The notes below the pieces were generated by a model. That model saw only the letters and a list, made by a program, of their open reading frames with translations, searched no databases and was not told the origin of the DNA. Shown in pieces: positions 13,875-62,503 of a stretch of DNA of 64,000 nt; position 1 is the stretch's first letter, and every line of letters starts with the position of its first letter. The stretch lies in the NCBI RefSeq assembly GCF_002836255.1, contig NZ_PJAU01000031.1, positions 248,001 to 312,000 on the forward strand. The letters are read 5' to 3'. The position numbers were made by a program, and so were the translations under genes. Origin of the DNA: Colwellia sp. 75C3. GTDB taxonomy: Bacteria > Pseudomonadota > Gammaproteobacteria > Enterobacterales > Alteromonadaceae.

Positions 13875-13948
13875 TTGGCTCAAGGCATTCATCAATCGTG
13901 CTCATTGACATGCGTCAACTCCGCGCGATTTCTTTTCCCTTGAACCAA
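13875..13948 (+). repeat. Hairpin repeat, copy 1 (argS-prfC spacer)
   Basis: One of six copies of a long-hairpin repeat. Apex TTGAC-ATGC-GTCAA (13905-13918), middle arms ATCGTGC/GCGCGAT (13895 and 13923), outer arms TTGGCTCAAGG/CCTTGAACCAA (13875 and 13938, 10 of 11 paired). The middle-arm sequence differs from other copies on both sides together. Confidence 0.8.
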
Positions 13949-14064
13949 CTAACTGCGATAAAGAAGCTATTACGCAGTTAGTGAAATTTATTATTGTTTA
14001 TGTCCGATGTTTTACGAAATAAATCATCAAAAATAATATCAACTTACTCATGTTTGGTTAAGTA

Positions 14065-14166
14065 GATAGCGTTATAGCAAGGCGCTTAATCATTTTTATA
14101 AAAGAGCTTAGTACACTAAGTGACTGCATCAAAATGTTTAAGCAACGCCGCTAGAACGTTATATAC
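14065..14166. repeat. Second palindromic element, about 102 bp
   Basis: An imperfect inverted repeat centred on CTTAGT-AC-ACTAAG (14107-14120). The outer arms AGCGTTATAGCAAGGCGCTT (from 14068) and the reverse complement of the sequence ending at 14166 align with scattered mismatches over about 35 bp. It abuts the 3' end of prfC (stop at 14179) and may double as its terminator, though no T run follows on the minus strand. Confidence 0.55.
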
Positions 14167-14178
14167 GACACCAAAAGG

Positions 14179-15759
14179 TTAGTGTTCACGGGTCGAGTGA
14201 AACTGTATATCTGGGTTTCTTTCTTGTGCTAGCGATAAATTAACCATCGTCGGTGCGATGTACGTTAAGTTATTACCACCATCATATGCTAGGTAATCAC
14301 CCGATTTCTTTTTAAATTGCTCTAAAGTGCGCTCATCATCACAAGTACACCAGCGTGCAGTAGCAACACTAATGGCTTCGTATATAGCATCAACTTTATA
14401 TTCAGTTTTCAAACGTTGCACAACAACTTCAAACTGCAATACACCTACAGCACCAACAATCATATCGTTGTTAATGAATGGTCTAAATACTTGTACAGCA
14501 CCTTCTTCAGATAACTGAATCAGACCTTTCTGTAATTGTTTAGCTTTTAACGGATCACGAAGACGAATACGACGGAACATTTCAGGTGCGAAGTTAGGAA
14601 TACCACTAAACTTCATCATTTCACCCGAGGTAAACGTATCACCTATCTGAATACTACCGTGGTTGTGCAAACCAATAATATCACCGGCAAAGGCTTCCTC
14701 AACGTTTGATCGATCGCCAGCCATAAAGGTTACCGCATCGGCGATTTTGACATCTTTACCAATACGTACTTGTTTCATTTTCATACCTTTTTCATATTTG
14801 CCAGAGCAAATACGCATAAAGGCGATACGGTCACGATGTTTTGGATCCATATTGGCTTGAATTTTAAATATAAAACCTGAGAACTTTTCTTCTGTCGCAG
14901 TTACTTCGCGTAAATCTGTTTTGCGAGGTAATGGCTTCGGTGCCCATTTAGTCAAACCATCAAGCATGTGGTCAACACCAAAGTTACCTAGTGCAGTACC
15001 AAAGAATACTGGCGTTAATTCACCATTTAAGAATTCTTCTAAATTAAAATCATGAGAAGCGCCGGAAACAAGCTCTAATTCTTCACGTAAATCATCAGCA
15101 TAGTTACCAATTATTTTATCAAGTTCAGGATTATTAAGACCTTTAATAACGCGCTTTTCTTGAATCATGTGGCCTAGGCCTGATTGATACAAGGTGATTT
15201 CGTCATCAAGAATATGGTAAATGCCTTTAAATTCTTTACCCATGCCTATTGGCCAAGTAATAGCAGCACATTTAATTTTTAATACGTCTTCAACTTCATC
15301 CATAACTTCCATTGGGTCACGTACATCGCGATCCATTTTGTTCATGAAGGTAATGATTGGCGTATCGCGAAGACGAGTAACTTCCATTAACTTAACGGTA
15401 CGTGCTTCAACACCTTTGGCAACGTCAATTACCATTAAACATGAATCAACGGCGGTCAGTGTACGGTAAGTATCTTCTGAGAAATCTTCATGACCAGGAG
15501 TATCAAGTAAGTTTACTAAACAGTCATTGTAAGGAAATTGCATTACCGAGGTAGTAATTGATATACCACGCTCTTTTTCCATTTCCATCCAGTCAGATTT
15601 TGCGTGTTGACCTGATTTTTTACCTTTTACCGTACCGGCTCTTTGTAAGGCTTGGCCAAACAAAAGCACTTTTTCGGTGATGGTGGTTTTACCCGCATCG
15701 GGGTGAGAAATAATGGCAAAGGTGCGACGTAAATCGACTTGCTGTTGCTGTACAGACAT
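14179..15759 (-). CDS. prfC: Peptide chain release factor 3
   Basis: RF3 is the translational GTPase that drives RF1/RF2 off the ribosome after termination. G-domain motifs are in order: SHPDAGKTT (G1), RGISITTSV (G2), DTPGHEDF (G3) and NKMD (G4). The 526-residue length and the domain II/III sequence fit RF3 rather than EF-G. In E. coli the order is holD-rimI-yjjG-prfC; here holD and rimI also lie upstream on the same strand, but yjjG is replaced by an unrelated 82-codon gene. Confidence 0.97.
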
Positions 15760-16074
15760 GCAAATTACCTGTTAAGTAAATAGTGGAGAAGCTCCTTGAG
15801 TACTTGGCTTAGTATTAACCTTAGTACAGGGCTTTTCATCATAATTAAAAAATTGCGCGCATTATAACATTAAAATAGAAAAAATTTGTAAAAAGCAGCG
15901 TTTATAAAAACTAACTTTTTATATCGCTAAAAGGGGAATTAATGGAACTTAAAAATAATGGCAGGAGAGGTCTGTTTACTTTACTGTAACTTTAGATAAG
16001 CCGACATGAAATTGACGAAAAATATGTTGCTAAAGAGATAGTTTTCTAAAGTTTAATTAGCTTACTTTGAGCAA
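15760..16074. other. prfC upstream region
   Basis: This 315-bp gap holds a minus-strand TATAAT at 15861-15866 followed by a GC-rich stretch (GCGCGC), the kind of discriminator seen in growth-rate-controlled genes. No convincing -35 lies 16-18 bp before it. Nothing else is recognised. Confidence 0.4.
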
Positions 16075-16323
16075 TTAGATGAATAAGTTTGAAATAAATT
16101 GAGATTCATTTTGGTCCAATAAGGGGGTAGGTCGCGGGGTGAATTTTACCACTTTATTATCATTGCTTGCTGGATTCACTTGGCTAGATAATAATGCAAA
16201 AGCTTGATGTTCGCTAAGTCCCGTAAGTTGGCTGATTTTTCTCAATGCATCACTTACAACAAGGTTTGCTACACCTTCATTCGAGAGTTGGCTATCTGTA
16301 GTGGGAATTATTTTAGTAAACAT
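16075..16323 (-). CDS. Hypothetical protein, 82 residues
   Basis: I do not recognise this protein. It is predicted to be soluble, with a helical segment LRKISQLTGLSEHQAFALLS (about residues 27-46) that resembles a small helix-turn-helix or UBA-like fold, then a basic stretch VKFTPRP. No signal peptide or membrane helix is seen. It starts with ATG 184 bp downstream of rimI, codirectional with holD-rimI and prfC, in the slot occupied by yjjG in E. coli. Its codon use looks like its neighbours. It could be a real lineage-specific gene; coding status rests on the open frame and position only. Confidence 0.55.
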   Translation of the reverse strand: MFTKIIPTTDSQLSNEGVANLVVSDALRKISQLTGLSEHQAFALLSSQVNPASNDNKVVKFTPRPTPLLDQNESQFISNLFI

Positions 16324-16506
16324 ACTGTTCTCATCATCACTTGTTAAAAACCTTGTTAGGAATCTTAGTAAGTATCTTGTTGAGTATATTAACTAAAACA
16401 GAGAGATTAACTAGCCACTTTGCGTGTGAAAATGTTGTTGTTTGTTAATGGATGGCTAGTTTGGTATTTACTTAGGGGGTGATTATCAGTCTATTGACGT
16501 TTTTTA

Positions 16507-16995
16507 TTAGCATTTCAATGACATAACAATAGCATCTTCATAACCAAAGCCTGAACTGCTCGGGTAGTAACCTGTACGACGATCAATTTCGATAAAACCA
16601 GCATTCATATAAAGCATTTGAGCTGCTATATTTTTAGCGCGCACTTCTAAAAACACTTTAGTGGTACCCAGTTTTTTAGCTTGGGCTAAAAACTGGTTAA
16701 GCAATGCTTTACCGTATCCCTTACCTTGCTCTGTTGGTACTACACAAATATCCATCAGTGTTGCTTCACCAATAACATATTCACCAATATAAAAACCTAT
16801 AGCATGCTCGGCTGAGAGATCTTTTTCAGTTACTTGAAAAAAATCGCCAAAATAACGGCCACCAATACAGCTTGAAAAAGTTTTTTCACTCCAAGGATGT
16901 GAATGACAAGCAAGTTCAATGGGCATTAACTTATCTACATCGGCTTGTGCTATTTCAGTAAAGTATTTTGTGCTATTTTTTGCTGCATTACTCAT
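16507..16995 (-). CDS. rimI: Ribosomal protein S18 alanine N-acetyltransferase
   Basis: RimI is a GNAT acetyltransferase that modifies the N-terminal alanine of ribosomal protein S18. The acetyl-CoA loop EQGKGYGKALL (Q/RxxGxG/A) follows the strand ATLMDICVVP, and the RimI-typical FLEVRAKNIAAQMLYMNAGF and R-RTGYYP segments follow. Length 162 is close to the E. coli enzyme, with a slightly longer N-terminus. It lies 9 bp downstream of holD on the same strand, the standard holD-rimI pair. Confidence 0.92.
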   Translation of the reverse strand: MSNAAKNSTKYFTEIAQADVDKLMPIELACHSHPWSEKTFSSCIGGRYFGDFFQVTEKDLSAEHAIGFYIGEYVIGEATLMDICVVPTEQGKGYGKALLNQFLAQAKKLGTTKVFLEVRAKNIAAQMLYMNAGFIEIDRRTGYYPSSSGFGYEDAIVMSLKC

Positions 16996-17004
16996 TGTAT
17001 TTAC

Positions 17005-17385
17005 TTACTCTTGTGTTTTTTTAGTCAGTAATTGCCATAATTGCTTTTTAAGCGCAGGCGACTTTGATATTTCGGCGATAGTAGGCGTAATAAGCTGCTG
17101 CTCAAGCCATTGTATTTCATTCTTAGATGATACTGAGGTGAAATACCAGTTAAATAGCCCTAAGTTTAAGTGGTCATCTTGGTGACTAATTTCACCGATA
17201 CTTAAACCCGTTGCTAATAAAATGTCATTGAATAGTTGTTGCTTTGCTAACTCATTTAAATCGATATCAAGATAGCTGTTGGGTTGAGTTTGGGTTGCGG
17301 CATTTACAGACTGAGAAGTACGGCGCTGCCAAAGGCTGATGCCCATTTCAGTGAGTTGCTCAAATTGATGTTGGTTAATGCTCAT
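17005..17385 (-). CDS. holD: DNA polymerase III psi subunit
   Basis: Psi links the clamp-loader complex with chi and single-stranded-DNA-binding protein at the replication fork. The protein is fast-evolving, so the call relies on the N-terminal pattern QLTEMGISLWQRR (E. coli QLGITQWSLRR), the C-terminal helix with SPALKKQLWQLL, the size (126 residues; E. coli 137) and its place directly before rimI. No other family fits. The N-terminal motif is the part that contacts chi in the known family. Confidence 0.8.
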   Translation of the reverse strand: MSINQHQFEQLTEMGISLWQRRTSQSVNAATQTQPNSYLDIDLNELAKQQLFNDILLATGLSIGEISHQDDHLNLGLFNWYFTSVSSKNEIQWLEQQLITPTIAEISKSPALKKQLWQLLTKKTQE

Positions 17386-17577
17386 CAGTGATGGCTCATT
17401 TGCTAGTACAACGTAAGGTTAAATATAATGACAGAATTAGTTGCTGACTAAAAGCAGATAAATTAATGTTGCGCTAAGTATTATTTAATAAGTTATTTTG
17501 GTCATGGCTAGTAGTTTGACTTTTAAATTTACTAGATGATTTATCAGGGAGATATAGATATAACACAGGAGAAAAAA

Positions 17578-17654
17578 TGGCAGGGGTGGAGAGACTCGAA
17601 CTCCCAACCATCGGTTTTGGAGACCGCTGTTCTACCAATTGGAACTACACCCCT
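17578..17654 (-). tRNA. tRNA-Trp (anticodon CCA)
   Basis: A full cloverleaf on the minus strand: acceptor AGGGGTG pairs with CACCCCT, discriminator G, and CCA is encoded (17578-17580). The anticodon loop CTCCAAA carries CCA at 17618-17620, and the T arm contains GTTCGAGTC. It is a single tRNA gene, 77 nt including CCA, about 190 bp before holD. Confidence 0.97.
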
Positions 17655-17667
17655 GCAGCTGAAACGA

Positions 17668-17695
17668 ATTATACTGATGCGAGCTAAAAGGTAAA
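17668..17695 (-). promoter_or_regulatory. Promoter of tRNA-Trp
   Basis: Minus-strand TTTACC (17690-17695) and TATAAT (17668-17673) are 16 bp apart. They lie 13 bp before the mature 5' end of the tRNA. Confidence 0.6.
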
Positions 17696-17815
17696 GCTCT
17701 AATACGATTTATTTACTAAAAATTGACTGTTTGCCTGATTTAACAACAAACTGGCAGTTAAGTAAGCAGTTTGTTGCTAGGTTAATTCTGAATTTTGTTT
17801 TAAAATTCAATTTTG

Positions 17816-19579
17816 TTACTTACCGGGTAGCCCTTGATGACAAAAACGGTATTTCTCTGGATAAGGAAAAACATCTTTATAAATACCATTGGCGACATCT
17901 TTTTGGCATTGTTGCCAATATTTTGCTGTTAACAAATCGTCATGGTGTATTTTAAATGCTTTTAAATAACTGGGATTTGCCAATGCAAAGGTCGCTATTT
18001 CTTCTGGGAACATATCTCCAGGTAATACTGTATACCAAGGTTCAGCAGCGTATAGTTGTTCTTCAGTAACCGCCTTAGGCTTCTCCCGAAAGTTGACCTC
18101 ATTCATATAGGTTATTTCATCGTAATCATAAAAAATCACCCGTCCATGGCGAGTAACACCAAAGTTTTTGAGTAACATATCACCTGGAAATATATCTGCG
18201 GAGATAAGTTGTTTAATCGCTTCACCATAACCAAACATGGCATTGTCTATTTTTTCTTGGGCTTTGTTTTTAAGGGCATCTATTAGATATAGATTAAGTG
18301 GCACCATACGACGCTCTATATAGACATGCTCAATAATAAGAAGCTCGTCTTCTCCCTCTCCCTCATAACGAATAATTGATGAAGCTACTTTTTGTAATTC
18401 AGCTAACAGTTCATCGTTAAAACGTTTTTTGGGGAAAGCGACTTCGGAATACTCCATGGTATCCGCCATGCGACCGACTCTGTCATGTAGCTTAACTAAA
18501 CGATACTTGCCTTTGACATCTTTTTTAGTCATGTTTTTACTGGGTGAGAACTTATCTTTAATAATCTTAAAAACATAGGGGTATGAGGGCAGGGTAAATA
18601 CCGACATCACCATACCTTTGATACCGGCAGCTAATTCAAATTGGTCATCACTGCTCTCTAGGTGGTTAAGGAAATCTCGATAGAATTGTGTTTTACCTTG
18701 TTTATGAAAGCCAATTGCCGAATATAAATCAGCTTTAGTTTTATGAGGCATAAGCCCTTGTAGGAAATTAACTAAGGCATAAGGATGCTGACAATCTACA
18801 AAAAAGTAAGCGCGGGCAAAACCAAATACCACCGCCATACTTTCGCTGGTAGTTAATAGTGCATCTAAGTATAAACCGCCTTTTTCGTTATTAAGTACCG
18901 CGACAATAAATGGAGTTTCTCCTGCAGGAGATAAAACCCGACCAATTAAATAGGCACCTTTGTTACGGTAAAAAGTAAAGTTTAAAATATCAAACTGTAA
19001 ATCTTCTAGTTTTACGCGAGTTTTATGTGCTTTACGGCGAAAGGTATTGATAAGTGCATCAACATCACGGTCGAGGTTTTCAAAAGGAATAACCGTTCTA
19101 TGATTGTTCATAATGTCACAGATGGTTTGTTTTAAGCCCAATACTTCCGGCTTATAAGAGGTATAAATTTCTGGTGCTGCTTTATCATCAAGTCGGTGCG
19201 CGGTACTTTCCACAAAAATATAATCATTATGATAATACTTACGTTCAAATAAATGACAAAAAACCGAGTTATAAAAGGTTTCAGCCAATTCAGGTTGCAT
19301 ATGATTGGTTAATAAATCGGAGTAAACAGCTTTAACTTGCTGCCACAACGCGTTATCAAGTGAGCTAATATCGAAGTTTTCTTTTATATGGTTGAAAGTT
19401 TCAGTTACACGATCATCATAAAAAGTAGTTCTGGCTCTGGCCGAACGATGAATTTCATTCCATTGGCATTGTTGAAATCGCTCTCGGGCTGATTGAGTAA
19501 TCTCAGTGAAAAGTGCAACATGGTGTTCAAAGCCGTTAATAATAGTGGAGGCTATAGTAAGCGCAAGTTCATTTTTCAT
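17816..19579 (-). CDS. aceK: Isocitrate dehydrogenase kinase/phosphatase
   Basis: AceK phosphorylates and dephosphorylates isocitrate dehydrogenase, setting the split between the TCA cycle and the glyoxylate bypass during growth on acetate or fatty acids. The 587-residue length and the N-terminal regulatory half followed by an atypical kinase half (AGIKGMVMSVFTLPSYPYVFKI around residue 315; FFDYDEI-like DYDEITYMNEVNFR near 500) match the family. It is monocistronic here and not linked to aceA or aceB inside this window, as in many Alteromonadales. Confidence 0.95.
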   Translation of the reverse strand: MKNELALTIASTIINGFEHHVALFTEITQSARERFQQCQWNEIHRSARARTTFYDDRVTETFNHIKENFDISSLDNALWQQVKAVYSDLLTNHMQPELAETFYNSVFCHLFERKYYHNDYIFVESTAHRLDDKAAPEIYTSYKPEVLGLKQTICDIMNNHRTVIPFENLDRDVDALINTFRRKAHKTRVKLEDLQFDILNFTFYRNKGAYLIGRVLSPAGETPFIVAVLNNEKGGLYLDALLTTSESMAVVFGFARAYFFVDCQHPYALVNFLQGLMPHKTKADLYSAIGFHKQGKTQFYRDFLNHLESSDDQFELAAGIKGMVMSVFTLPSYPYVFKIIKDKFSPSKNMTKKDVKGKYRLVKLHDRVGRMADTMEYSEVAFPKKRFNDELLAELQKVASSIIRYEGEGEDELLIIEHVYIERRMVPLNLYLIDALKNKAQEKIDNAMFGYGEAIKQLISADIFPGDMLLKNFGVTRHGRVIFYDYDEITYMNEVNFREKPKAVTEEQLYAAEPWYTVLPGDMFPEEIATFALANPSYLKAFKIHHDDLLTAKYWQQCQKDVANGIYKDVFPYPEKYRFCHQGLPGK

Positions 19580-19830
19580 AAGGCATCAACTCTTTAGTCG
19601 TTTTAAAAAGGGGAGGATATAAGTAGTGTTTATCACCCAACATACACTAAAAGCCTTATAGCAGAGATAATTATCATAAATACTGGTTATCACTGGCAAT
19701 AATGTTGTTTCAACACAACTTTGTTCTCTCTTCTTCAAGCTTACGCTTTAAAAGTGGCGAATTAACTTGCTATCAAGGGCGTGCAGCTCTAAAATTACGC
19801 CTTTTTTAAGCCAGAAAAATAGCCAATATC

Positions 19831-20901: not shown

Positions 20902-20971
20902 CTAAGTAACGTTACCTAAGTAAAACCTTATTTTAAACCAAACACCGCCAGCCTGTTTTGCTAGTGGGTGA

Positions 20972-22141
<1,170 letters not shown>

Positions 22142-22210
22142 GGTCAATTTACCTTAAAATATTTAGAAGAGTTTTAAAAATCCAGTAGCTTGTCAATTTG
22201 AAGCTATTCG

Positions 22211-22278
22211 GTTTGATTTATAAGAAAAGGCACAGAGTTGACGTTAGTCAATGAGTACCTTTGACACCTAAATCAAAC
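22211..22278 (-). repeat. Hairpin repeat, copy 2 (tgt-yajC spacer)
   Basis: Inverted relative to copy 1. The outer arms GTTTGATTTA (22211) and TAAATCAAAC (22269) pair perfectly; the middle arms AAAAGGCAC and GTACCTTT (22225 and 22255) pair with one G-T; apex TTGAC-GTTA-GTCAA (22238-22251). Confidence 0.85.
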
Positions 22279-22344
22279 TTAATGGCAATAAAGTGATAAG
22301 TTACTAACTAATTAGCTAATCAATAATAAGAAGTAGAGACAAAT

Positions 22345-22680
22345 ATGAGTTTATTTATCAGTACAGCACACGCAGCAGACGCACCAGCAGCAGCCGGCGG
22401 CGGAATGGAAATGATCATAATGCTAGCCGTTTTTGGTTTAGTATTCTTTTTCATGATTTATCGTCCACAAGCGAAACGTGTAAAAGAACATAAAGGTTTA
22501 ATGTCTTCACTAGCTAAAGGCGATGAAGTCTTAACGCAAGGCGGCATTGTTGGCAAAATCGTTAAAGTTTCTGATGAAAAAGACTTTATTGTTGTTAGCA
22601 TTAGCGAAGGTACTGAAGTGACAGTACAGAAAGGCGCGATAAACGCGGTGCTTCCTAAAGGTACAATGAAATCTCTGTAG
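22345..22680 (+). CDS. yajC: Preprotein translocase subunit YajC
   Basis: YajC is the small inner-membrane partner of SecDF. It has one transmembrane helix (about residues 24-42, MIIMLAVFGLVFFFMIY), then the family motif RPQAKRVKEHKGLMSSL and a cytoplasmic beta domain ending in KGAINAVLPKGTMKSL. Length 111 is typical. It is followed by about 290 bp before secD, a gap unusually long for this operon because it holds two hairpin-repeat copies in opposite orientation. Confidence 0.96.
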   Translation: MSLFISTAHAADAPAAAGGGMEMIIMLAVFGLVFFFMIYRPQAKRVKEHKGLMSSLAKGDEVLTQGGIVGKIVKVSDEKDFIVVSISEGTEVTVQKGAINAVLPKGTMKSL

Positions 22681-22699
22681 CACATAACCTCATTGCCAT

Positions 22700-22773
22700 T
22701 TAACACGCTAGCGGCATCGGGAATACTCATTGACATTCGTCAACTCCGTGTTCCCTTTTTGCTAGTGTATTAA
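22700..22773 (+). repeat. Hairpin repeat, copy 3 (yajC-secD spacer)
   Basis: Outer arms TTAACACGCTAGC (22700) and GCTAGTGTATTAA (22761), middle arms GGGAATAC and GTGTTCCC (22719 and 22748) paired with one wobble, apex TTGAC-ATTC-GTCAA (22730-22743). Confidence 0.85.
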
Positions 22774-22853
22774 CTGATTGCGAGCTTAAGTACTATGGTA
22801 AAGATAAACTCTATAAAGAGTATAATTAAAGTTAGTAGATCTCTGATTTGTGG

Positions 22854-22935
22854 TCTATTGAAATAAGTACAAGGCGAAAGCGCGGAGTTGACCCATGTCA
22901 ACGAGCACATTCAACGCCGTAATTATAAAAATAGA
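22854..22935 (-). repeat. Hairpin repeat, copy 4 (yajC-secD spacer)
   Basis: Inverted copy closely matching copy 5 in its middle: GGCGAAAGCGC (22873), TTGAC-CCAT-GTCAA (22888-22901) and GCACATTCAACGCC (22905). Weaker outer arms are TCTATT (22854) and AATAGA (22930). It ends 35 bp before the secD start. Confidence 0.8.
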
Positions 22936-22970
22936 GCGGCAATACAACAGCCCTCTAAAAAGGACATATT

Positions 22971-24818
22971 GTGTTAAACAAATACCCCTTATGGAAAACA
23001 CTCATGGTGGCAATGGTTGTCGCTTTTGGTGCACTCTATGCCACACCAAACCTATACGGTGAATCACCTGCTGTTCAAGTCTCAGGTTTACGCGGCGTTG
23101 AAGCTGATACCGCTACCCTTGATAGAATCAGAGCACAACTAGAAAAAAACAAGCTGACCTTTGACAGTATTGCATTAGAAAATGGTCAAGTCTTAACGCG
23201 TTTTAGTAATACTGAAGATCAACTGAAAGCCCGTGATGTACTAGATGATAATTTAGGTAAGCAGTTTTCTGTTGCCCTAAACTTAACACCTAATACACCT
23301 GAATGGTTAGCAGCCATTGGTGGTACGCCAATGAAGAAAGGCTTAGATTTAAGTGGTGGTGTTAGCTTCTTGATAGAAGTAAACATGAAAGAAGCCATTA
23401 ATAAAGCTAAAACAGGTATGGTAAGTGATTTTCGTGGTGATTTACGCAATGAAAAAATTCGCTACCGCAGTGTTAAAGAAAGTAATGATGCTGTTAATGT
23501 AGTTTTCCGTAAAATTGAAGACTTAGAAGCCGCGCAATCATTATTGAAAAAGCGCTATCGTGATTTACTGCTAACCACAGATGACGATAAGCTGATGCTA
23601 ACAGCAAAAATGACTAAGCAAAAGATTAAAGTAATACGTGAATATGCCTTAGAACAGAATATCACTATTATTCGTAATCGAGTTAACGAGTTAGGCGTTG
23701 CAGAGCCGCTTGTTCAACGCCAAGGTAAAAAACATATTGTTATCGAATTACCAGGTGTTCAAGATACTGCTACAGCGAAAGAAATTCTTAGTGCAACGGC
23801 AACTATTGAATTTCGATTAGTTGATACCGAAGGTGATTTATCAAATGCATTAAATGGTCGCGTGCCTGCAAACTCTATCTTATTAAGAGATAAAGACGGT
23901 AAGCCAAGCTTATTGAAAAAGCGTGTTATGTTAACCGGTGATCATATTACCGATGCTAAATCAGGCTTTGATGAGTACTCACGACCACAAGTTAATATTT
24001 CACTTGATAGTGCTGGTGGCTCTAAAATGTCAAGTGGCACCAAAAGTAATATTGGTAAGCCTATGGCAACAGTATTCATTGAATACAAAACCACTGACAA
24101 AAAAGATGCTGAAGGTAATTTAATCTTTGAAAAACATCAAGAAATCATCTCAATTGCAACGATTCAATCACGTCTAGGTAAGTCTTTCCGTATTACCGGA
24201 GCAGGTAGCCCAGCGGAAGCGCATAACCTTGCCTTATTATTACGTGCAGGTGCTTTAGTGGCACCTATTGCTATTGTCGAAGAGCGAACGGTAGGTCCTA
24301 CTTTAGGTGCTGAAAACGTAAGACTTGGCTTCGAAGCTATTTTGATGGGCTTTGGTTTAGTGTTTATCTTTATGATGATTTATTACCGTGCCTTTGGCGT
24401 AGTTGCTAACCTTGCATTAGGCGCTAACTTAGTACTAATTGTCGGTATTATGTCATTAATACCGGGTGCTACGCTTACTTTACCTGGCATGGCTGGTATC
24501 GTGTTAACGGTTGGTATGGCTGTTGATGCTAACGTACTTATTTTTGAACGTATCCGTGAAGAAATACGTGAAGGTAAAACGATTCAACAAGCAATTCACC
24601 AGGGTTATGATGCAGCATTTTCAACGATCATTGATGCGAATATCACCACGTTAATTGCCGCATTGATTCTGTTTGCCATTGGTACTGGTCCAGTAAAAGG
24701 TTTTGCCATAACATTATCTATCGGTATCATTACTTCAATGTTTACCTCTGTTGTTGGTACGCGTGCTGTAGTTAACGCTATTTGGGGCGGAAAACGCCTT
24801 GATAAACTTCCTATATAA
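22971..24818 (+). CDS. secD: Protein translocase subunit SecD
   Basis: SecD works with SecF to pull exported proteins through SecYEG using the proton gradient. The first membrane helix (residues 8-25), a long periplasmic domain with the P1 head, and five C-terminal helices are all readable, including the SecD signatures [11 protein letters not shown] near residue 120 and [16 protein letters not shown] near 520. The start is GTG, preceded by AAGGAC at good spacing. Length 615 is normal. secF follows after 21 bp. Confidence 0.97.
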
Positions 24819-34165: not shown

Positions 34166-34489
34166 ATGGCTGTTACCATGACTCCTGCTGCAGCTGAACG
34201 CGTTCAATCGTTCATGAAAAACCGTGGCAAAGGACTTGGACTTCGTTTAGGTATTAAAACCACCGGTTGTTCAGGTTTAGCCTATGTGCTCGAATTTGTT
34301 GATGATTTAAATGAAGATGATCAATTGTTTAACATTAAAGATGTTAATATCATCATCGACGAAAAAAGCTTAGTTTACCTTGATGGTATTGAACTCGACT
34401 TTACTAAAGAAGGTTTGAACGAAGGCTTTAAATTCACCAATCCCAACGCCAAAGGTGAGTGTGGGTGTGGTGAGTCGTTCAACGTATAA
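34166..34489 (+). CDS. iscA: Iron-sulfur assembly protein IscA
   Basis: IscA is an A-type carrier that passes clusters to target proteins. The three conserved cysteines lie in TTGCSGLAY (near 35) and in the C-terminal ECGCGESF. Length 107 is standard. It starts 11 bp after iscU, so the two are tightly coupled. The spacer after it holds hairpin-repeat copy 5, which could modulate expression of the distal hscBA-fdx genes. Confidence 0.97.
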
Positions 34490-34505
34490 TGTGTAAACTC
34501 TTTGC

Positions 34506-34585
34506 AACTTGATTCAATTACGGCGTTGAAAGTGCTCATTGACTAACGTCAACTCCGCGCTTTCGCCTTGTACTTGAACCGAGTT
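34506..34585 (+). repeat. Hairpin repeat, copy 5 (iscA-hscB spacer)
   Basis: The best-paired copy: outer arms AACTTGATTCAA (34506) and TTGAACCGAGTT (34574), middle GGCG-tt-GAAAGTGC with GCGCTTTCGCC, apex TTGAC-TAAC-GTCAA. It lies inside the isc operon, so it is almost certainly transcribed. Confidence 0.88.
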
Positions 34586-34660
34586 CCTTCGAGTTTTAAA
34601 CATTATTAAATTTTAGCTTACTATAGAAAGCTTTTAGACCATTTCCTCTAGGTATAAGCA

Positions 34661-51179: not shown

Positions 51180-51229
51180 GTTTTCCTCAGTTATAGGCAC
51201 CCACCGTGCTTACAATGATAAATTAAATT

Positions 51230-51372
51230 TTAGGCCGGTCTCCGGACTTGAATTATCAACAATTGATAGCTCACACCGTTGCGGGGGCAGTATTGGTTTT
51301 ACCAATTTCCCGTTTCACCTTTAGCTATGATTGAGATCAGTTGATAACTCAGAAATAAAGCTATTAGGCACC
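51230..51372 (-). promoter_or_regulatory. Cobalamin riboswitch upstream of btuB
   Basis: On the minus strand: GGTGCC start (51367-51372), GTGAAACGGGAAATTGG, ACTGCCCCCGCAACGGTGTG and the B12 box AGTCCGGAGACCGGCC (51232-51248). These are the conserved blocks of the cobalamin class in the right order. A small hairpin GCAC/GTGC just before the ribosome site (about 51197-51210) could complete translational control. Confidence 0.93.
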
Positions 51373-55071: not shown

Positions 55072-55277
55072 TTTTAGATGTTTAGATGGCTATTTGTTAT
55101 GCGTTATTGAAATTGAATTGTGGTATTTTGAGGTAGCAACAGAGATTATAATTTTCACTTTAAATATAAATAGTTAGTAACATCAATTCACTGTATTAAT
55201 TCGATAAATTCTTATCCATCTACTACGCTTTAAGGCAACTGATTTTCAGTATTTTAACAACTTAGATAGAGGTTAAT

Positions 55278-55763: not shown

Positions 55764-55772
55764 GGGGTTGTC

Positions 55773-56240: not shown

Positions 56241-56326
56241 CCTTTAGCATCCTAAGTAATGTGTGAAGTGCAGTTAAAAGTTAGTCTGTTAACGGTTAAA
56301 TTCGCTAACCGGTAGTTAACCAGTAG

Positions 56327-56521
56327 TTAAGCAACTTGTGGCTGTGCTTCAGCAATTTGCATTAATTTTTTGTTTAATACTCGTTTAGTGCATTGACAAC
56401 ATTTACCGCATTGTGAGCCTACTTTAAGCTCTTGAGTCAATTGTTTCATCGTTTCTGCGCCATTATCTATAGCGGATTCTATTTGTGTATCGGTAACACC
56501 ATGACAAATACAAATGAACAT
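56327..56521 (-). CDS. bfd: Bacterioferritin-associated ferredoxin
   Basis: Bfd is the small [2Fe-2S] protein that docks on bacterioferritin near the heme and delivers electrons to release iron. The cluster cysteines are MFICICHGV (C4, C6) and GSQCGKCC near residue 40, the C-x-C...C-xx-C pattern of BFD-type domains. I chose the ATG at 56521, which gives 64 residues, the family size; the longer open frame would add an implausible hydrophobic leader. A Fur box lies 55 bp upstream, implying induction when iron is low. Confidence 0.94.
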   Translation of the reverse strand: MFICICHGVTDTQIESAIDNGAETMKQLTQELKVGSQCGKCCQCTKRVLNKKLMQIAEAQPQVA

Positions 56522-56575
56522 AAAAACAGCACTCAACTTGAAAAACAACGTATAAACAGTGATGCTTATAATAAC

Positions 56576-56594
56576 CGTAATGATAATAATTATC
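56576..56594 (-). promoter_or_regulatory. Fur box upstream of bfd
   Basis: The 19-bp sequence with core TAATGATAATAATTATC matches the Fur consensus at about 16 of 19 positions by eye. It lies upstream of the minus-strand bfd gene, a known Fur target in gammaproteobacteria. Confidence 0.75.
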
Positions 56595-56596
56595 AA

Positions 56597-56905
56597 TAAG
56601 ATTGTTTAGTAGTAAAATTAATGACTTAGTCTATTTAGGTATTTTGTTGATCATCTTGAAGAGTTTTTTATAAGATTATTGAGTATTATTAGTCTTATTT
56701 ATGGTAATGAAATAGCTGTTAATAAGTGCTATATCTTAATTTTTATCTTTCAACAACTCGGGGTGTTGACAGGTTTGAGTGACTTTTACTGCTAAACTTA
56801 GTTGAAGTATATTTGTACTTTAACTAAGTCTAATTAAGTTTAACTATTGTTGCATACTTATAATGTAAGTGTGGCAGAGGACGGTAAAGTTTTAGGTCTA
56901 TTATT
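56597..56905. other. Gene-free region before the solute-binding-like gene
   Basis: About 310 bp without a gene. A good TTGACA occurs at about 56765 on the plus strand, with only weak -10 candidates. No repeat or RNA is recognised. Confidence 0.3.
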
Positions 56906-57619
56906 TTGCATTCTTTCTTTTGTAATCTATTTATTATCAGTGCCGTACTTTTTTATTCATTAAGTGCAAAATCTGCTGCGAATAAAACCATAACATTAGG
57001 TACTACTAATGCGACTGTAACACCTTTATATCAAAAAGCTCATCGCATTTTAACTTATGCGTTTCTTCAATTTGGCTATGACCTTTCAATAAAGGTTCTC
57101 CCGAACAAACGCAGCTTAATTTGGGCTAATCATGGTGTACTTGATGGTGATCTATTTCGTATCAGTAATCTAGATTTAACAACATTTATGAATTTGCAGC
57201 GAGTTGATGAACCACTTTTTGTTATTGATCAATCCGTGATTGGAAAAGCAGGTATTAAGGTTAATGGTTGGCAAAGTATGAATAAGTATATTGTTGCTTA
57301 TGAAAGAGGGACAAAATTTATTGAGACTCATCAAGATAAATTTAAAGGTGTTATTTTAGTTAATACATTTGATCAAGCGGTAGCACTTATTCATGCTGGT
57401 CGTGCTGATATTACGATTACAAGTAGAAATACAGCAAACACTTTCCTAGCTCGTTTAAAATATGATCATGAAGTTATGGTTCATCAGCCCCCTTTAGTTG
57501 AAATAGCATTACATGTTTATATTAATAAGTATAAACACCCAGAATTGGCTGATAAGCTGTCAGCGTTATTAAGATTAATGAAAAGTAATGGTCAATTTGA
57601 GGCATTATTATCTGAATAA
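56906..57619 (+). CDS. Periplasmic solute-binding-like protein (SBP_bac_3 type)
   Basis: A secreted protein of 237 residues resembling amino-acid type solute-binding proteins. The signal peptide covers about residues 1-25 (FIISAVLFYSLSAKSA). The mature part has the two-lobe features KAHRILTYAFLQFGYDLSIKVLP, DGDLFRISNLDLTTF and FDQAVALIHAGRADITITS. Such stand-alone proteins are common in Colwellia, unlinked to transporters, and may sense ligands. The start is TTG (ATT at 56900 is an alternative); no ATG fits. It ends at a bidirectional terminator. Confidence 0.72.
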   Translation: MHSFFCNLFIISAVLFYSLSAKSAANKTITLGTTNATVTPLYQKAHRILTYAFLQFGYDLSIKVLPNKRSLIWANHGVLDGDLFRISNLDLTTFMNLQRVDEPLFVIDQSVIGKAGIKVNGWQSMNKYIVAYERGTKFIETHQDKFKGVILVNTFDQAVALIHAGRADITITSRNTANTFLARLKYDHEVMVHQPPLVEIALHVYINKYKHPELADKLSALLRLMKSNGQFEALLSE

Positions 57620-57653
57620 TCATTTACTATTATAGCAACTTATTTCGCTCAAT

Positions 57654-57680
57654 AAAAAAGGAGCCTAAGCTCCTTTTTTA
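57654..57680 (+). terminator. Bidirectional terminator between convergent genes
   Basis: Stem AAAAGGAGC/GCTCCTTTT with a CTAA loop and T/A runs on both sides, between the solute-binding-like gene and the M13 peptidase gene. Confidence 0.88.
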
Positions 57681-57700
57681 TTGTTATATAGGCAAACTAA

Positions 57701-59764
57701 TTACCAAATTTTAACGCGTTTTTCTGGTGCTATATACATTGCATCGCCTTCTTTAACATCAAATGCTTGATAAAACTCATTCATGTTAGAAAGTGAACCA
57801 AGAGCACGGAACTCTGCAGGTGAATGTGGGTCTGTAGCTACACGATTACGTGCAGATTTCTCAACAATTTTCGCACGCCAGATTTGAGCATAACCCATAA
57901 AGAAACGTTGATCGCCAGTTAAGCCATCCAGAACCGGTGCTTCTTCACCATTTAATGACGTTTTATAGGCTCTATAAGCGATAGTTACCCCTGATAAATC
58001 ACCGATATTTTCACCGAGTGTCAACTTACCATTTACAGCTAAGTCGTCAAAAACGTGATATTCATCATATTGCTCAACTAACGCTTTAGTACGGTTAGAA
58101 AATTCTGCTAAATCTTGCTCAGTCCACCAATTACGTAAGTTACCTTCAGCATCATACTTACTACCTTGATCATCAAAGCCGTGGCCCATCTCATGGCCAA
58201 TTACTGCACCAATGCCACCGTAGTTAACGGCATCATCAGCTTTCATATTAAAAAACGGTGCTTGTAATATAGCGGCAGGGAAAACAATTTCGTTTACCGT
58301 TGGATTATAATAAGCATTAACCGTTTGTGGTGTCATGCCCCATTCCCAATTTTTAATTGGACCACCAAGTTTAGCAACTTCTTTATCATGAGATAAACGT
58401 GAAGAACGCAGAATATTACCGACTAAATCATTACCATCAATACTTAGTGCAGAGTAATCTTCCCATCTATCAGGGTAACCAATTTTAGGTGTAAAAGCGG
58501 CTAACTTAACATGTGCTGCTTTTTTGGTATCTGTAGACATCCACTCAAGATCATCAATGCTATTACCATAAGATGAACGTAAGTTTTCAACTAATTCACT
58601 CATGCGCGCCTTAGCTTGTGGAGTAAAGTGACGATTAACATACACTTTACCAATGACTTCTCCTAAATTACCGTTAACAACACCTACACCACGTTTCCAT
58701 TGTGGACGTTGCTCTTGTCGGCCACTTAATTGTTTTGAATAAAAATCAAAGTTCTCATTATCTATATCAGTAGTTAAGTAGCTAGAAAAGTTACTTAAAC
58801 TATGGAAGTTTAAATACGTTTTCCAATCTTCTAGTGATGTTTCAGCAAATATTTCACCGAAACCAGCAACAAAATCTGGTTGGTTAATAATAATATCTTT
58901 TTGAGAAGCAACTCCTTGAGCAGCAAGGTAAGCTGACCAATCAAAAGCATCAGTTAATTCATTGAGTTTATTAACTGCATACTTGTTGTAACGTTTTTCA
59001 CTGTCTCGACTTTGAACTTGCGTCCAGTGAAACTTAGCTAATTTTGTTTCTAATGCCATGATAGTTTTAGCTGCTTTTTTACCATCAGCAATACCGGCTA
59101 AATTGAACATTTTTTCAATATGAGCGATATAACCAGCACGTAAAGCAGTAAAACGCTCAGTTTCATTAAAGTAGTAGTCTTTATCAGGTAAGCCCAAGCC
59201 ACTTTGCCAGATGTGCGTTGCATAACTGCTAGAATCTTTAGCATTAACGCTAATGTAAAAAGCTAAAGGACTGCCAACACCCACCGCTTGATATTCACCA
59301 AAAAAGCTTGCTAATTCTGATTTATTATTAAGATTGTTAATTGCATCAAAAATAGGTTGGATTGGCTTAACACCTAAACTGTTGCGTTTTTCTGTGTCCA
59401 TGTACGAGCGAAAGATGTCAGCTACTTTTTGTTCATCGCTACCTTTAGTTAGGTTTTTAGCGACAGCCAGTTCTTCAATGATGGCTTTAACATCATCATC
59501 AGCTTTATCTCGAAGATCATAGAATGAACCGATAGCCGTTTTATCACCTGGAATGGTATGGTTCTTCAACCAATTGCCATTTACATAACGATAAAAATTG
59601 TCTTGTGGACGGATAGTGTTGTCAATGTTGGCTTTTTCTATACCAGAAGCTAGTGCGGTTTTTTGTGTAGTAAATGGTACGTTATTGCTGGTATCAGCTT
59701 GGGTAGTACAGCCAGTCATTAGCAATAATGATGAACATATTGCACTGGTAATAATTGCTTTCAT
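57701..59764 (-). CDS. M13 family zinc metallopeptidase (lipoprotein)
   Basis: A neprilysin/PepO-type peptidase that cleaves small peptides outside the cytoplasm. The signal MKAIITSAICSSLLLMTGC has a lipobox (MTGC, Cys19). The catalytic zinc motif is HEMGH (about 524-528), with the third ligand in GENIGDLSG and the substrate motif NAYYNPTVNEIVFPA before it. It ends RVKIW, typical of the family. I chose the ATG at 59764, preceded by GGAATTTTC, which starts the lipoprotein signal. Length 687 is normal. It and the DPP IV suggest a peptide-degrading lifestyle. Confidence 0.94.
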   Translation of the reverse strand: MKAIITSAICSSLLLMTGCTTQADTSNNVPFTTQKTALASGIEKANIDNTIRPQDNFYRYVNGNWLKNHTIPGDKTAIGSFYDLRDKADDDVKAIIEELAVAKNLTKGSDEQKVADIFRSYMDTEKRNSLGVKPIQPIFDAINNLNNKSELASFFGEYQAVGVGSPLAFYISVNAKDSSSYATHIWQSGLGLPDKDYYFNETERFTALRAGYIAHIEKMFNLAGIADGKKAAKTIMALETKLAKFHWTQVQSRDSEKRYNKYAVNKLNELTDAFDWSAYLAAQGVASQKDIIINQPDFVAGFGEIFAETSLEDWKTYLNFHSLSNFSSYLTTDIDNENFDFYSKQLSGRQEQRPQWKRGVGVVNGNLGEVIGKVYVNRHFTPQAKARMSELVENLRSSYGNSIDDLEWMSTDTKKAAHVKLAAFTPKIGYPDRWEDYSALSIDGNDLVGNILRSSRLSHDKEVAKLGGPIKNWEWGMTPQTVNAYYNPTVNEIVFPAAILQAPFFNMKADDAVNYGGIGAVIGHEMGHGFDDQGSKYDAEGNLRNWWTEQDLAEFSNRTKALVEQYDEYHVFDDLAVNGKLTLGENIGDLSGVTIAYRAYKTSLNGEEAPVLDGLTGDQRFFMGYAQIWRAKIVEKSARNRVATDPHSPAEFRALGSLSNMNEFYQAFDVKEGDAMYIAPEKRVKIW

Positions 59765-60071
59765 GAAAATTCCTTGTCTATATGTCATAGAATGTTTTGA
59801 GTAATCAAAGATATAATGAGAATTTTAATTTTTTAATTTTTTATACTTTGAACATGCTAAATACGCACGATTGCTCGATTCTACTGGGTATTTTTAAGGA
59901 TTTCTAGCGAATGAAACATCTGTTTACATATTTGTTTTATTTAGAAATATCATCAGAAATTAATATTTAGGAAGGTTATTACGCAAGGTCTTGCTTTTAT
60001 TGGTTTAACACCTAGTTAACAAATGTTTGACTAGGTGTTACAGACGCTTAATGTGATGATGCAAATATTAA
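59765..60071. other. Gene-free region between M13 and ThrE-like genes
   Basis: A 307-bp gap. Apart from the hairpin at 60006 (listed separately) I see no gene, repeat or RNA. It should include the M13 promoter. Confidence 0.4.
60006..60040 (-). terminator. Possible terminator hairpin after the ThrE-like gene
   Basis: A perfect 11-bp stem TAACACCTAGT/ACTAGGTGTTA with a partly self-complementary loop (CAAA-TG-TTTG). It sits 32 bp past the minus-strand stop, but no T run follows. Confidence 0.5.
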
Positions 60072-61298
60072 TTATAAGGTTTTTCCATGAGGCAATACTG
60101 CATTGGAGAAAATAATACCAGCAACCAGTGACATAAATATTAAGAATGTTTGGGAACCTAAATCAGGTACGTTCAACATATTCTGTCCAGAGACCGCACT
60201 ATTTAAGCCAATATAAACTTTGGATCCAGGTACAAGTACGACTAAGCCGAGGATTCTTACAATGCTAGAAGGCAGGTTCATCATTCGAGAAAATAAATTA
60301 CTGTATAAGCCTAGTGCAAAAGCGCCAACAAATGCGCCTAACGCTACGCCTAAATAATTACTTGCCCAAATGCTAACACCAAAGGCAATATAACCAGAAA
60401 TCATACCCCAAGGAGCGTCTTTTAATCTTACTTTAAAGAGAATAACTAGACTGGCAGAAAGTGTTGTTACCGCAAGCCATGAAGTCCACACTGGCATAGT
60501 GTCAGGAGGAATGAATACTGAAGTTCCCCATATCAAATTACCCAGAGCCATACCTAATACAGCACCAAAATACAGCTTAAATAACATCATTATACTGTCC
60601 ATGATGCGCGCAGTACCAGACATTAAATGCCGTGCCGCAAGTTCAGATAAACCCACGGTTAAAGATAGCCCCGGTATAAATACAATGATGCTTGACAGAA
60701 TTACCATAGGGATATTTATGCTAGGATCAATTATTGATATGGCCGAAGCTAATAGTGATGCCACAAGAGCTGCCATTGGTTCGAGTAAATCAGACATGCG
60801 TCGTGAGCGCTCAGCCCAAAGTACAAAAGCAAAGGTAACCCAACCTAAAATAGTCGACCAAAAAACATCGTGCCAGCTAGTATGCATTAACATAGCAAAA
60901 GCGCCGCTTGATGCTCCGTACGCTAAAAAAGATAACATAGTACCGTAAGGTGCTGGTTTATTTTTTACTTCGGCTAAACGATCAATCGCTTCACTTAGTG
61001 TACGCTGACCGTTGATTAGCTCATCAACAAGCTCATCAATACGTGCTAAAGAACCAAGGTCGATATCACCAGGACTAACACGGACTAAATGATTATATTG
61101 CTGATCATCTTCATCATCAGATAAGATAAAAGTTAATGCGGTAGGCGTGATGATAAATGAAGCGCGAATATCGAGGAAACTTGCAATAGATAATAGGTTA
61201 TCTTCTAAACGATATGCGGTAGAGCCTAGCTTATGTAAAGCTTTGCCTAATTTTATGATAAAACGACGTTTTTGGTAGAAATTATCGGTTTGTTGCAT
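60072..61298 (-). CDS. ThrE-like threonine/serine exporter family protein
   Basis: A membrane protein of 408 residues with a cytoplasmic N-terminal part (1-125) carrying LGKALHKLGSTAYRLEDNLLSIA and PAPYGTMLSFLAYGASSGAFAML, then about ten helices. This is the DUF1212/ThrE architecture as one polypeptide. Family members export threonine and serine (Corynebacterium glutamicum ThrE); many others are untested. It is divergent from a tiny membrane-protein gene that begins about 90 bp away. Confidence 0.85.
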   Translation of the reverse strand: MQQTDNFYQKRRFIIKLGKALHKLGSTAYRLEDNLLSIASFLDIRASFIITPTALTFILSDDEDDQQYNHLVRVSPGDIDLGSLARIDELVDELINGQRTLSEAIDRLAEVKNKPAPYGTMLSFLAYGASSGAFAMLMHTSWHDVFWSTILGWVTFAFVLWAERSRRMSDLLEPMAALVASLLASAISIIDPSINIPMVILSSIIVFIPGLSLTVGLSELAARHLMSGTARIMDSIMMLFKLYFGAVLGMALGNLIWGTSVFIPPDTMPVWTSWLAVTTLSASLVILFKVRLKDAPWGMISGYIAFGVSIWASNYLGVALGAFVGAFALGLYSNLFSRMMNLPSSIVRILGLVVLVPGSKVYIGLNSAVSGQNMLNVPDLGSQTFLIFMSLVAGIIFSNAVLPHGKTL

Positions 61299-61387
61299 TG
61301 CTATATTTGATGGTAAGTTGCACTGTTTGCTATGGTAATCGATTTTGCTAAAACAGGGTATAAAAAACTAATAAAAAGAGAAAAAAA

Positions 61388-61561
61388 ATGACATTAATAA
61401 TTATTTTGGCTTGTGTTTTTTTAGCGGTATTTCTGATGGTTACTTTGGGGGAGAAGTTTGGTAAATCCATGACCGATGAACAGCAAGGTAAGTACGGTAA
61501 AATATTACCAATATTGGTATTTATATTATTAATCGCTGCTATTATCAAAGCAATGTTTTAA
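61388..61561 (+). CDS. Small two-helix membrane protein, 57 residues
   Basis: Not a usual gene call because of its size, but well supported: ATG at 61388 after AAAAAGAGAAA, then two hydrophobic helices (residues 2-19, TLIIILACVFLAVFLMVT, and 39-56, ILPILVFILLIAAIIKAM) separated by a charged cytoplasmic-type loop GEKFGKSMTDEQQGKYGK. No match to a named family. It lies between the ThrE-like gene and the aldolase gene and might be a membrane-complex accessory subunit. Confidence 0.75.
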   Translation: MTLIIILACVFLAVFLMVTLGEKFGKSMTDEQQGKYGKILPILVFILLIAAIIKAMF

Positions 61562-61637
61562 ACGGCTTTATTGCCTATTCATCATCAGGTAAAATCTAGC
61601 GATAACCAACTATTCTTACACATAGAGAGCTCTTGTA

Positions 61638-62408
61638 ATGCAGCCACTGCCTAAACTCGATTTAAAAAATAAAGTATCAGCCCAAGAATGGCAATTACGG
61701 GTAGATTTGGCGGCTTGTTACCGGTTATTACAAATGCACGGTTGGGATGATCTTATTCATACTCATATTTCTGTCTGCATCCCGGGTACTGAACATATTT
61801 TGATAAATGCTTTCGGTTTAGCTTTTGAAGAAATAACCGCCTCAAATTTAGTTAAAATTGATATTGACGGTAATATTATCGACAAAGATTGTCCGTTTGA
61901 AATAAACCCAGCAGGCTTTACTATTCATAGTGCAGTACATCAAGTACGCCACGATGACATTTGTGCATTGCATATACACACTAATGAAACTATTGCCGTT
62001 GCTAGTGTAGAAGAGGGGCTATTGCCTTTAAGTCAATATTCAATGTTTGCCTTAGCGTCTATGAGTTACCATGATTATGAAGGTCTAGCGGTTAATGATG
62101 ATGAAAAGCGTAGATTGCAACATGATTTAGGTGATAAAAACTTTATGTTATTACGCAATCATGGTGCTTTAACCATGGGCAAAACCATTGGTGATGCCTT
62201 TATGCATATGTATGATTTAACACGTGCTTGTGAAATACAGCTTCAAGTAATGGCGACAGGCATGAAACCTATTTATGCCCCGCAAAGTATTATTGATGGC
62301 ATTAAGGCGCAAGCTAATATTGTGCATTCTGGCGAAACGGGCGGTCAAAAAGCATGGCCAGCCATGCTCAGAAGAGTTTATCGTAATGACCCCACTTTTG
62401 CTCAGTAG
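61638..62408 (+). CDS. Class II aldolase/adducin family protein
   Basis: A 256-residue cytoplasmic protein with the aldolase/adducin fold. Zinc-ligand histidines are visible in LHIHTN and RNHGALTMG. At the place of the catalytic glutamate of fuculose-phosphate aldolase the sequence reads NPAGFTIHSAVHQV, with Gly or Ala instead of Glu, so classical aldol cleavage is doubtful. Such proteins are often near sugar-acid genes, as here with a dehydratase and an amidohydrolase, but the substrate is unknown. Hairpin-repeat copy 6 follows. Confidence 0.8.
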   Translation: MQPLPKLDLKNKVSAQEWQLRVDLAACYRLLQMHGWDDLIHTHISVCIPGTEHILINAFGLAFEEITASNLVKIDIDGNIIDKDCPFEINPAGFTIHSAVHQVRHDDICALHIHTNETIAVASVEEGLLPLSQYSMFALASMSYHDYEGLAVNDDEKRRLQHDLGDKNFMLLRNHGALTMGKTIGDAFMHMYDLTRACEIQLQVMATGMKPIYAPQSIIDGIKAQANIVHSGETGGQKAWPAMLRRVYRNDPTFAQ

Positions 62409-62423
62409 TCACCTTCTTTTTGC

Positions 62424-62503
62424 TGTATCGCTCAATTTAGGCGTCAAAGGTACTCATTGACTAGCGTCAACTCCGTGCATTTTCCTTTAACTTGAACGAT
62501 ACA
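62424..62503 (+). repeat. Hairpin repeat, copy 6 (aldolase-dehydratase spacer)
   Basis: Outer arms TGTATCG (62424) and CGATACA (62497) pair perfectly, then TCAA/TTGA, middle AAAGGTAC with GTGCATTTT (one mismatch, one wobble), apex TTGAC-TAGC-GTCAA. The outer arm sequence is unlike the other copies. Confidence 0.85.

Follow-up and report, generated by a model that had tools for sequence, protein, structure and literature searches.

Intergenic palindromes of Colwellia with compensated arms and a polarity relative to stop codons: a probable sister family of ERIC

Introduction

Six imperfect palindromes lie between the genes of a 64-kb stretch of DNA from Colwellia sp. 75C3 (contig NZ_PJAU01000031.1, positions 248,001 to 312,000; "the window" below means this whole stretch), and they share a short apex while their arms differ. 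The question raised by this locus is whether such repeats are the debris of a mobile element or hairpins that work in the messages of the genes beside them. In our judgement the same question is unsettled for the enterobacterial repetitive intergenic consensus (ERIC), a repeat used for typing. ERIC, or intergenic repeat unit (IRU), is 127 bp long. Passages in PMC2229807 and PMC10969869 describe it as co-transcribed and, depending on its orientation, as destabilising the upstream mRNA in a manner linked to RNase E; its range as printed in PMC10969869 is Enterobacteriaceae and Vibrionaceae. A statement in PMC2759123 dates ERIC to 1990-91. PMC2267715 reports it from E. coli, Y. pestis and V. cholerae, among other genomes examined there, and states that the V. 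cholerae elements are shorter by 20 bp and have no predicted fold.

We consider it likely that the six copies belong to a Colwellia branch of a wider group of ERIC-related intergenic palindromes, whose hairpin would be transcribed as part of the flanking genes' mRNA and act in it. This reading is favoured because of an ERIC-like core and profile match, retention at orthologous places, compensated change in the arms, and polarity relative to stop and start codons. Among the new findings, the polarity relative to stop codons is the strongest. An old sister family with orthologous places and a compensated fold offers comparative evidence of a kind scarcely obtainable from the near-identical copies of ERIC, and its precise places, explicit structure and predicted base changes make the question of ERIC function testable.

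Results and discussion

Copies in the window and in the genus

The window holds six matches to the apex TCATTGAC-N4-GTCAACTCCG at ≤3 mismatches, where 0.02 were expected and none of 100 shuffles reached six, and these lie at the positions given in the preliminary description of this DNA. The apex is exact in four of the six copies, with one mismatch in those at 22233 and 22883 (minus strand). Spans of 68-82 bp had been reported; they are real but cover only the inner part of palindromes whose pairing extends to ~118 bp. The middle arms quoted earlier do pair, and differently in each copy. Folded as plus-strand RNA, all six were more stable than each of their own 200 dinucleotide shuffles (z values in Table 1). 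The weakest fold is that of the 22838 copy, whose minimum-energy plus-strand structure is not a single long hairpin.

Co-directional open reading frames (ORFs) flank all six copies, as had been claimed; the ORF caller was simple, and start codon positions are approximate. Pfam names were assigned to ten genes of the window. By these names the flanks are a release factor 3 (RF3, prfC-like) gene and argS; tgt and yajC; yajC and secD (two copies); an IscA-like Fe-S gene and an hscB-like gene; and an aldolase-II gene and an enolase-superfamily gene.

A covariance-model search of the genome and its relatives found a family much larger than six. The model built from Colwellia copies only (R1) gave 42 matches at E ≤ 1 in the 5.4-Mb genome of Colwellia sp. 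75C3, 41 of them at E < 0.01, and 32 places in that genome are ≤2 mismatches from the apex. The window carries six of these 41 copies where 0.49 would be expected (Poisson 1.2e-5), three of them within 0.8 kb around yajC. Counting this genome, R1 matched 8-47 copies in every one of 25 genus genomes, and 1-2 in two of 16 other genomes of the order. In a wider sample of 295 genomes from 99 genera, 63 genomes and 14 genera had matches at E ≤ 1e-4; only 12 candidates were scored per genome, so these copy numbers are minimum values.

Compensated change in the paired arms

Covariation was measured in 30 copies picked by apex sequence only, the arms being unselected. Changes on both sides were found in 17 of 22 consensus pairs, and 91.9% of cells pair. 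Compensated cells numbered 127, whereas shuffles gave 41.7 and slid registers 22-30, and one-sided changes that still pair made up 7 cells. In an order-wide alignment of 27 copies from other genera and five own copies (A7, made of copies found by R1 and thus biased towards its structure; L201, a short stretch without a core, was left out), compensation was seen in 28 of 30 pairs. A single T.G (U-G) pair was kept in 29/30, 43/44, 105/108 and 81/87 copies of the sets used and in 32/32 of A7. Selection on structure, as the preliminary description had proposed, is supported by these counts and by the behaviour of orthologues given below. Identical arms in all copies, which would have spoken for a simple mobile element, were not what was seen; the arms are specific to the locus. 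The copies hold their folded shape while the sequence changes, which suggests a working role and not leftover mobile DNA.

Matching arms in otherwise unrelated sequence could also come from template switching in quasi-palindromes, which homogenises the two arms without selection, and a whole apex stem changed together at one locus (RF3 gene-argS in L095, L110 and L119) agrees with that process. Homogenisation would, however, erase the internal loops and the T.G pair, and both are kept. In orthologue pairs with fewer than 10% changed sites, one-sided changes outnumbered compensated ones by 84 to 12 (the sequence pairs are not independent), so changes mostly arise on one side first. The one-sided changes still outnumbered the compensated ones at intermediate divergence, and the two were about equal from 40% changed sites on (172 vs 193 and 243 vs 250). 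An excess when close and parity when divergent fits stepwise compensation. Template switching as sole cause was rejected on the 84 to 12 excess, and we give the process as an explanation of the arms only a very slight chance.

Retention at fixed intergenic places

Besides the window and L169, the survey took in 80 SecD loci, making 82 sources. R1 gave 87 matches in them, of which 83 recur with unchanged orientation at a handful of intergenic places and four lie elsewhere; the counts for each place, window included, are in Table 1. Matches occurred in 29 of the 80 SecD loci, namely 27 labelled Colwellia, one of Litorilituus lipolyticus and one of Vibrio sp. 10N.261.55.A7, and 51 of the 80 had no R1 match, including three of Colwellia (L111, L112 and L114). 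At a single locus the arms differ across species, yet they pair in each. Palindromes can be lost, since in the tgt-yajC gap of L106 and L109 the hairpin interior is deleted and the outer arms alone remain.

Two observations concern particular places. The yajC-secD gap has two distinct plus-strand elements, A and B; L101 carries both and other species A or B. In the RF3 gene-argS copy of L095, L110 and L119, an apex stem of CATGC or CATGT with GCATG replaces TTGAC/GTCAA, the loop being shorter and the internal loop kept.

Position relative to stop and start codons

By the simple ORF caller, 39 of the 41 own copies lie between co-directional genes, two between convergent and none between divergent genes. 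The genus set was drawn from 109 matches in 97 loci (A5), which are the best-scoring among the matches listed and so biased towards well-folded copies. Six of the 109 were omitted from the context counts: L085 and L086, seemingly from outside the genus, the second L072 match and three members of an array in L266. The remaining 103 comprise 91 tandem, 10 convergent and one divergent placement and one at an edge.

The preliminary description had the copies occurring in either orientation. Both orientations do occur, but not freely, and the polarity relative to the genes, like the abutment to stop codons, the near-invariant T.G pair and the match to the ERIC apex, had gone unremarked. Where the upstream gene is on the strand of the element, its stop codon mostly lies ≤9 nt from the element's 5' end (25/34 own, 74/80 genus). 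No stop codon lies that near when it is on the opposite strand and the element's 3' end is the one that faces it (0/9 own, 0/31 genus). Many of the genus copies are orthologous and were therefore collapsed by upstream gene: at ≤10 nt, 40 of 45 same-strand groups and none of 20 opposite-strand groups have an abutting stop codon. Copies from other genera behave alike at ≤10 nt (same-strand stop 27/27, or 14/14 groups; opposite-strand 0/7, or 0/3 groups).

The opposite-strand copies keep a place of their own. Their 5' end stands 16-42 nt before the start of the downstream gene in 18 of 21 genus copies, most at 21-27, the remaining three being at -36, -13 and 459; five of seven own copies fall in the same 16-42 nt interval, and the other two are at -52 and 4. 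Pairing between the third base of the abutting stop codon and the 3' arm is present in 56 of 98 copies, more than in any of 10,000 shuffles (mean 41, maximum 54), though the copies are related and so not independent. The stops at elements are TAA 64, TAG 31 and TGA 3, and the background 123, 48 and 10. A low share of TGA at abutting stops had been considered as a sign of TA targeting and was dropped, the background of the same loci being alike.

These positions bear on the reading that the repeat is a mobile element only, that is, an ERIC-like miniature inverted-repeat transposable element (MITE) that inserts at TA, that favours stop codons as sites which contain TA and tolerate insertion, and whose structure serves mobility alone. 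The repeat is multicopy, intergenic and found in both orientations. Of the 19 sources with a match in the tgt-yajC gap, 18 have a gap of 188-253 bp (L107 has 373), and nearly all match-free Colwelliaceae loci have one of 22-117 bp (L105 has 281). A reading with TA at both ends, which presupposes such ends, is exactly 118 bp long in 8 of 30 copies. Yet both ends are mostly TAA or TAG and either could restore a stop codon on insertion, while only one abuts it (≤10 nt in 101 of 114 same-strand and 0 of 40 opposite-strand own and genus copies). The ends vary by locus and co-vary, with no single conserved inverted repeat, the same positions recur across species, and stop types that follow the background give no sign of TA targeting. 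We therefore regard an exclusively mobile origin of the pattern as improbable.

Strong hairpins at gene ends, with no own copy of 41 and one genus copy of 103 between divergent genes, would also suit transcription terminators or attenuators. The 3' consensus of 102 same-strand copies has no T-run after the hairpin, however, and the opposite-strand copies stand before start codons. The gene clusters tgt-yajC-secD and iscA-hscB are operons elsewhere, and some copies lie inside them. A role as terminator or attenuator is highly unlikely on these grounds.

Relation to ERIC

On its complementary strand the Colwellia apex is GGAG-N5-N4-N5-TGA, like the ERIC core. RNAalifold on 40 ERICs gave a 5-bp stem, a 4-nt loop and a TCA/CTC internal loop, the Colwellia internal loop being TCA/CTCC. 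The repeat had been thought distinct from ERIC and from repetitive extragenic palindromic (REP) sequences by its 4-nt loop and its changing arms; the locus-specific arms are indeed distinctive, but the loop is ERIC's own. Further likenesses to ERIC are the length class, intergenic placing, long hairpin, outer motifs (by eye) and stop-codon polarity, whereas ERIC's extra helix beside the core is lacking by eye in Colwellia. The conserved terminal inverted repeat of ERIC (TATACCC type) is lacking in the Colwellia copies, where each locus has ends of its own and the two ends pair.

ERICs were located with a core pattern taken from the PCR primers (CCCCAGGAGCTTAC..GTAAGTGACTGGGG, ≤3 mismatches). 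Among 290 genomes of the order, 14 contain it, and none of these 14 is one of the 63 R1-positive genomes. Seventy ERIC loci (211 kb) were used, selected by this core pattern, which contains the shared apex. They were searched with R3, a model from 27 other-genera and five own copies with no ERIC included. At E ≤ 10 it gave 64 matches, each in a different locus, and every one fell on the element in the expected strand; 29 were full-length and 35 covered only the 21-nt core, the best reached 38.3 bits (E 1.2e-6), and 15 were below E 0.05. Six SecD loci of Vibrio and eight loci with a Y1 transposase served as controls, and their 162 kb contained no R3 match. In the reverse direction a model of ERIC (R2) gave 23 matches on 49 loci of the family (best E 0.0035). 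Nineteen of these lay on the element in the right strand, 6 over its full length and 13 over the core alone, and four were off the element (L183:1632, L188:1956, L008:204 and L011:2607). Aligned as plain consensus sequences, the other-genera copies and ERIC were equalled by 19 of 5000 shuffles.

ERIC itself has a weaker polarity: a same-strand stop codon lies ≤9 nt away in 16 of 31 cases and an opposite-strand one in 4 of 33, a count that excludes 11 of the 70 elements as lying inside called ORFs. In a 2005 Yersinia study, stop-adjacent ERICs reportedly had one preferred orientation. The Colwellia repeats are probably a sister family of ERIC and not ERIC in the strict sense. Among the papers listed in our literature searches, none was seen to describe an ERIC-type element in Colwellia; Zo 2011 may already report relatives beyond enterobacteria and vibrios.

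Among other catalogued systems, REP sequences and their composites (BIME, REPIN) are likewise intergenic palindromes, at times in opposed pairs, but the REP/REPIN palindrome measures 20-40 bp and has a GTAG/CGTC tag at one end, whereas the Colwellia element measures ~118 bp. A link to the Y1 transposases of REP (RAYT) was rejected: seven of 25 genus genomes without a Y1_Tnp match at E ≤ 1e-5 still hold 8-40 copies, so that a Y1 transposase is unnecessary for the presence of the element. The elements YPAL / RU-2, RU-3 and NEMIS resemble the Colwellia repeat by description only, being presented in a part of PMC2229807 as small hairpin MITEs near genes. In Rfam, V_AS5 (RF02818) matched the ERIC loci L206 and L227 at 54.7 and 54.8 bits and Ysr49 (RF02766) matched L206 at 30.6 bits, all below gathering score; to judge from these matches, the two catalogued small RNAs may be ERIC-like transcripts. 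Neither family matched an element at E ≤ 0.5 in the Colwellia loci L013, L016 and L024 or the other-genera loci L180 and L187. Over gathering score, an Rfam scan of the window gave only a cobalamin riboswitch and tRNA, with no match to an element.

Action in RNA or DNA

In the explanation we favour, the element is an old intercistronic hairpin of ERIC type whose structure is under selection, and its inferred function would probably be exerted on mRNA decay. The copies presumably came from ERIC-like insertion and were afterwards kept. The hairpin would be transcribed within the operon mRNA of its flanking genes, and ribosomes terminating at the stop codon would open and close the outer stem, thereby exposing the 3' arm to RNases or hiding it from them. 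Upstream and downstream messages of one operon could then decay at different rates, and the conserved internal loop with the T.G pair may be the contact for a protein or ribonuclease. A bolder form of the same idea, which we put forward tentatively and hold to be rather doubtful, would make ERIC the enterobacterial offshoot of an old order-wide family of structured mRNA elements. The outer stem would there have co-evolved with the stop codon of its host gene, and termination would gate the hairpin and so set the relative stability of neighbouring genes such as those of tgt-yajC-secDF and isc.

Several results weigh against the favoured explanation. The ERIC core pattern has no match in the Colwellia sp. 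75C3 genome at ≤3 mismatches. R1 gave a single match on 30 ERIC loci (E 0.55), and R2 reached the element in only two of 22 Colwellia loci. The 35 core-only R3 matches are partly built in by the choice of loci, and it is the full-length ones that carry weight. Of the shuffles, 1549 of 5000 aligned as well as the Colwellia consensus with that of ERIC; plain consensus alignment is too weak for Colwellia alone and was dropped as proof of kinship. No clean empty site with a target-site duplication was found; TA..TA ends fit the copies, in a search that presupposed them. The copies are related by descent, and the shuffle counts given above overstate certainty. Lastly, the mismatch spectrum in own and genus copies (convergent, divergent and edge copies excluded) shows G.U and A.C about equally, 34 to 33. 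When the outermost pair is left out this becomes 29 to 20, the omission having been chosen after the data were seen. Among 25 distinct tRNA genes in the fetched loci, taken as a yardstick, the ratio is 21 to 2, although ARAGORN draws G.U as pairs and the yardstick consequently leans to G.U.

A rival explanation is a structure in DNA, either a cruciform or a hairpin of single-stranded DNA, that a protein recognises. Pairing close to Watson-Crick (of the changed cells that still pair, 127 are changed on both sides and 7 on one) and the equality of G.U and A.C in own and genus copies agree with it. In orthologue groups, however, G.U exceeds A.C in the transcribed orientation by 35 to 18, the T.G pair is nearly invariant, and the polarity is to stop and start codons. 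Scarce G.U had been considered as proof of pairing at the DNA level and was given up after the split by transcript orientation gave this mild excess in orthologues. The preliminary description had left RNA structure or DNA cruciform as alternatives; the pair spectrum does not tell them apart, any excess of G.U over A.C in the transcribed orientation being mild at most. We assign the DNA-level explanation a small probability. Polarity and the kept U-G pair make selection at the RNA level plausible, the G.U evidence for it being weak.

Features of the window

The element spans, the genes that anchor them and the support for each are collected in Table 1.

Table 1. Elements and selected neighbouring genes in the window, with model scores, fold z and numbers of orthologous loci.
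Feature	Position	Strand	Ends and placing	Support
ERIC-like element, RF3 gene-argS	13851..13972	+	ends by eye; genes on minus strand; 5' end towards argS start	R1 match 13857-13968, 92.3 bits; R3 86.5 bits; z -8.1; 16 loci including window
ERIC-like element, tgt-yajC	22186..22303	-	ends by eye; antisense to transcription; 5' end 42 nt from yajC start	R1 99.4 bits; z -7.6; 19 loci including window; deletion remnants in L106, L109
yajC	22345..22680	+	elements on both flanks	Pfam PF02699, E 4.1e-26
ERIC-like element, yajC-secD	22678..22795	+	ends by eye; first TAG is the yajC stop codon (22678-22680)	R1 88.3 bits; z -4.5; plus-strand element in gap, 26 matches including window, of two kinds
ERIC-like element before secD	22838..22949	-	span is the R1 match; antisense; 5' end ~18 nt from secD start	R1 80.8 bits; z -3.1; 11 loci including window
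secD	22971..24818	+		Pfam SecD-TM1, E 3.5e-40
iscA-like Fe-S biosynthesis gene	34166..34489	+	upstream of the 34487 element	Pfam PF01521, E 2.6e-23
ERIC-like element, iscA-like gene-hscB-like gene	34487..34605	+	ends by eye; first TAA is the iscA-like stop codon (34487-34489)	R1 108.2 bits; z -6.6; 11 loci including window
ERIC-like element after aldolase-II gene	62406..62522	+	ends by eye; first TAG is the aldolase-II stop codon (62406-62408)	R1 108.1 bits; z -4.6

Minor observations

The only match to a viral contig set (viral_contigs), in L169, was rejected as a chance apex match, with no R1 or R3 match and arms lacking by eye. Weak R3 matches unreported by R1 were seen at L119:328-470 (E 0.0024) and L130:9831-9933 (E 0.35); it is possible that these are eroded copies in other Colwellia species. 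The copy of Vibrio sp. 10N.261.55.A7 (L145:2723-2833) has another apex stem, CTTAT/ATAAG, with the same inner loops. One genus genome carries a tandem array of four elements ~107 bp apart (L266:1079-1512), three of them with an altered 5' arm. The cobalamin riboswitch lies at window positions 51216-51367 on the minus strand (RF00174, 59.9 bits).

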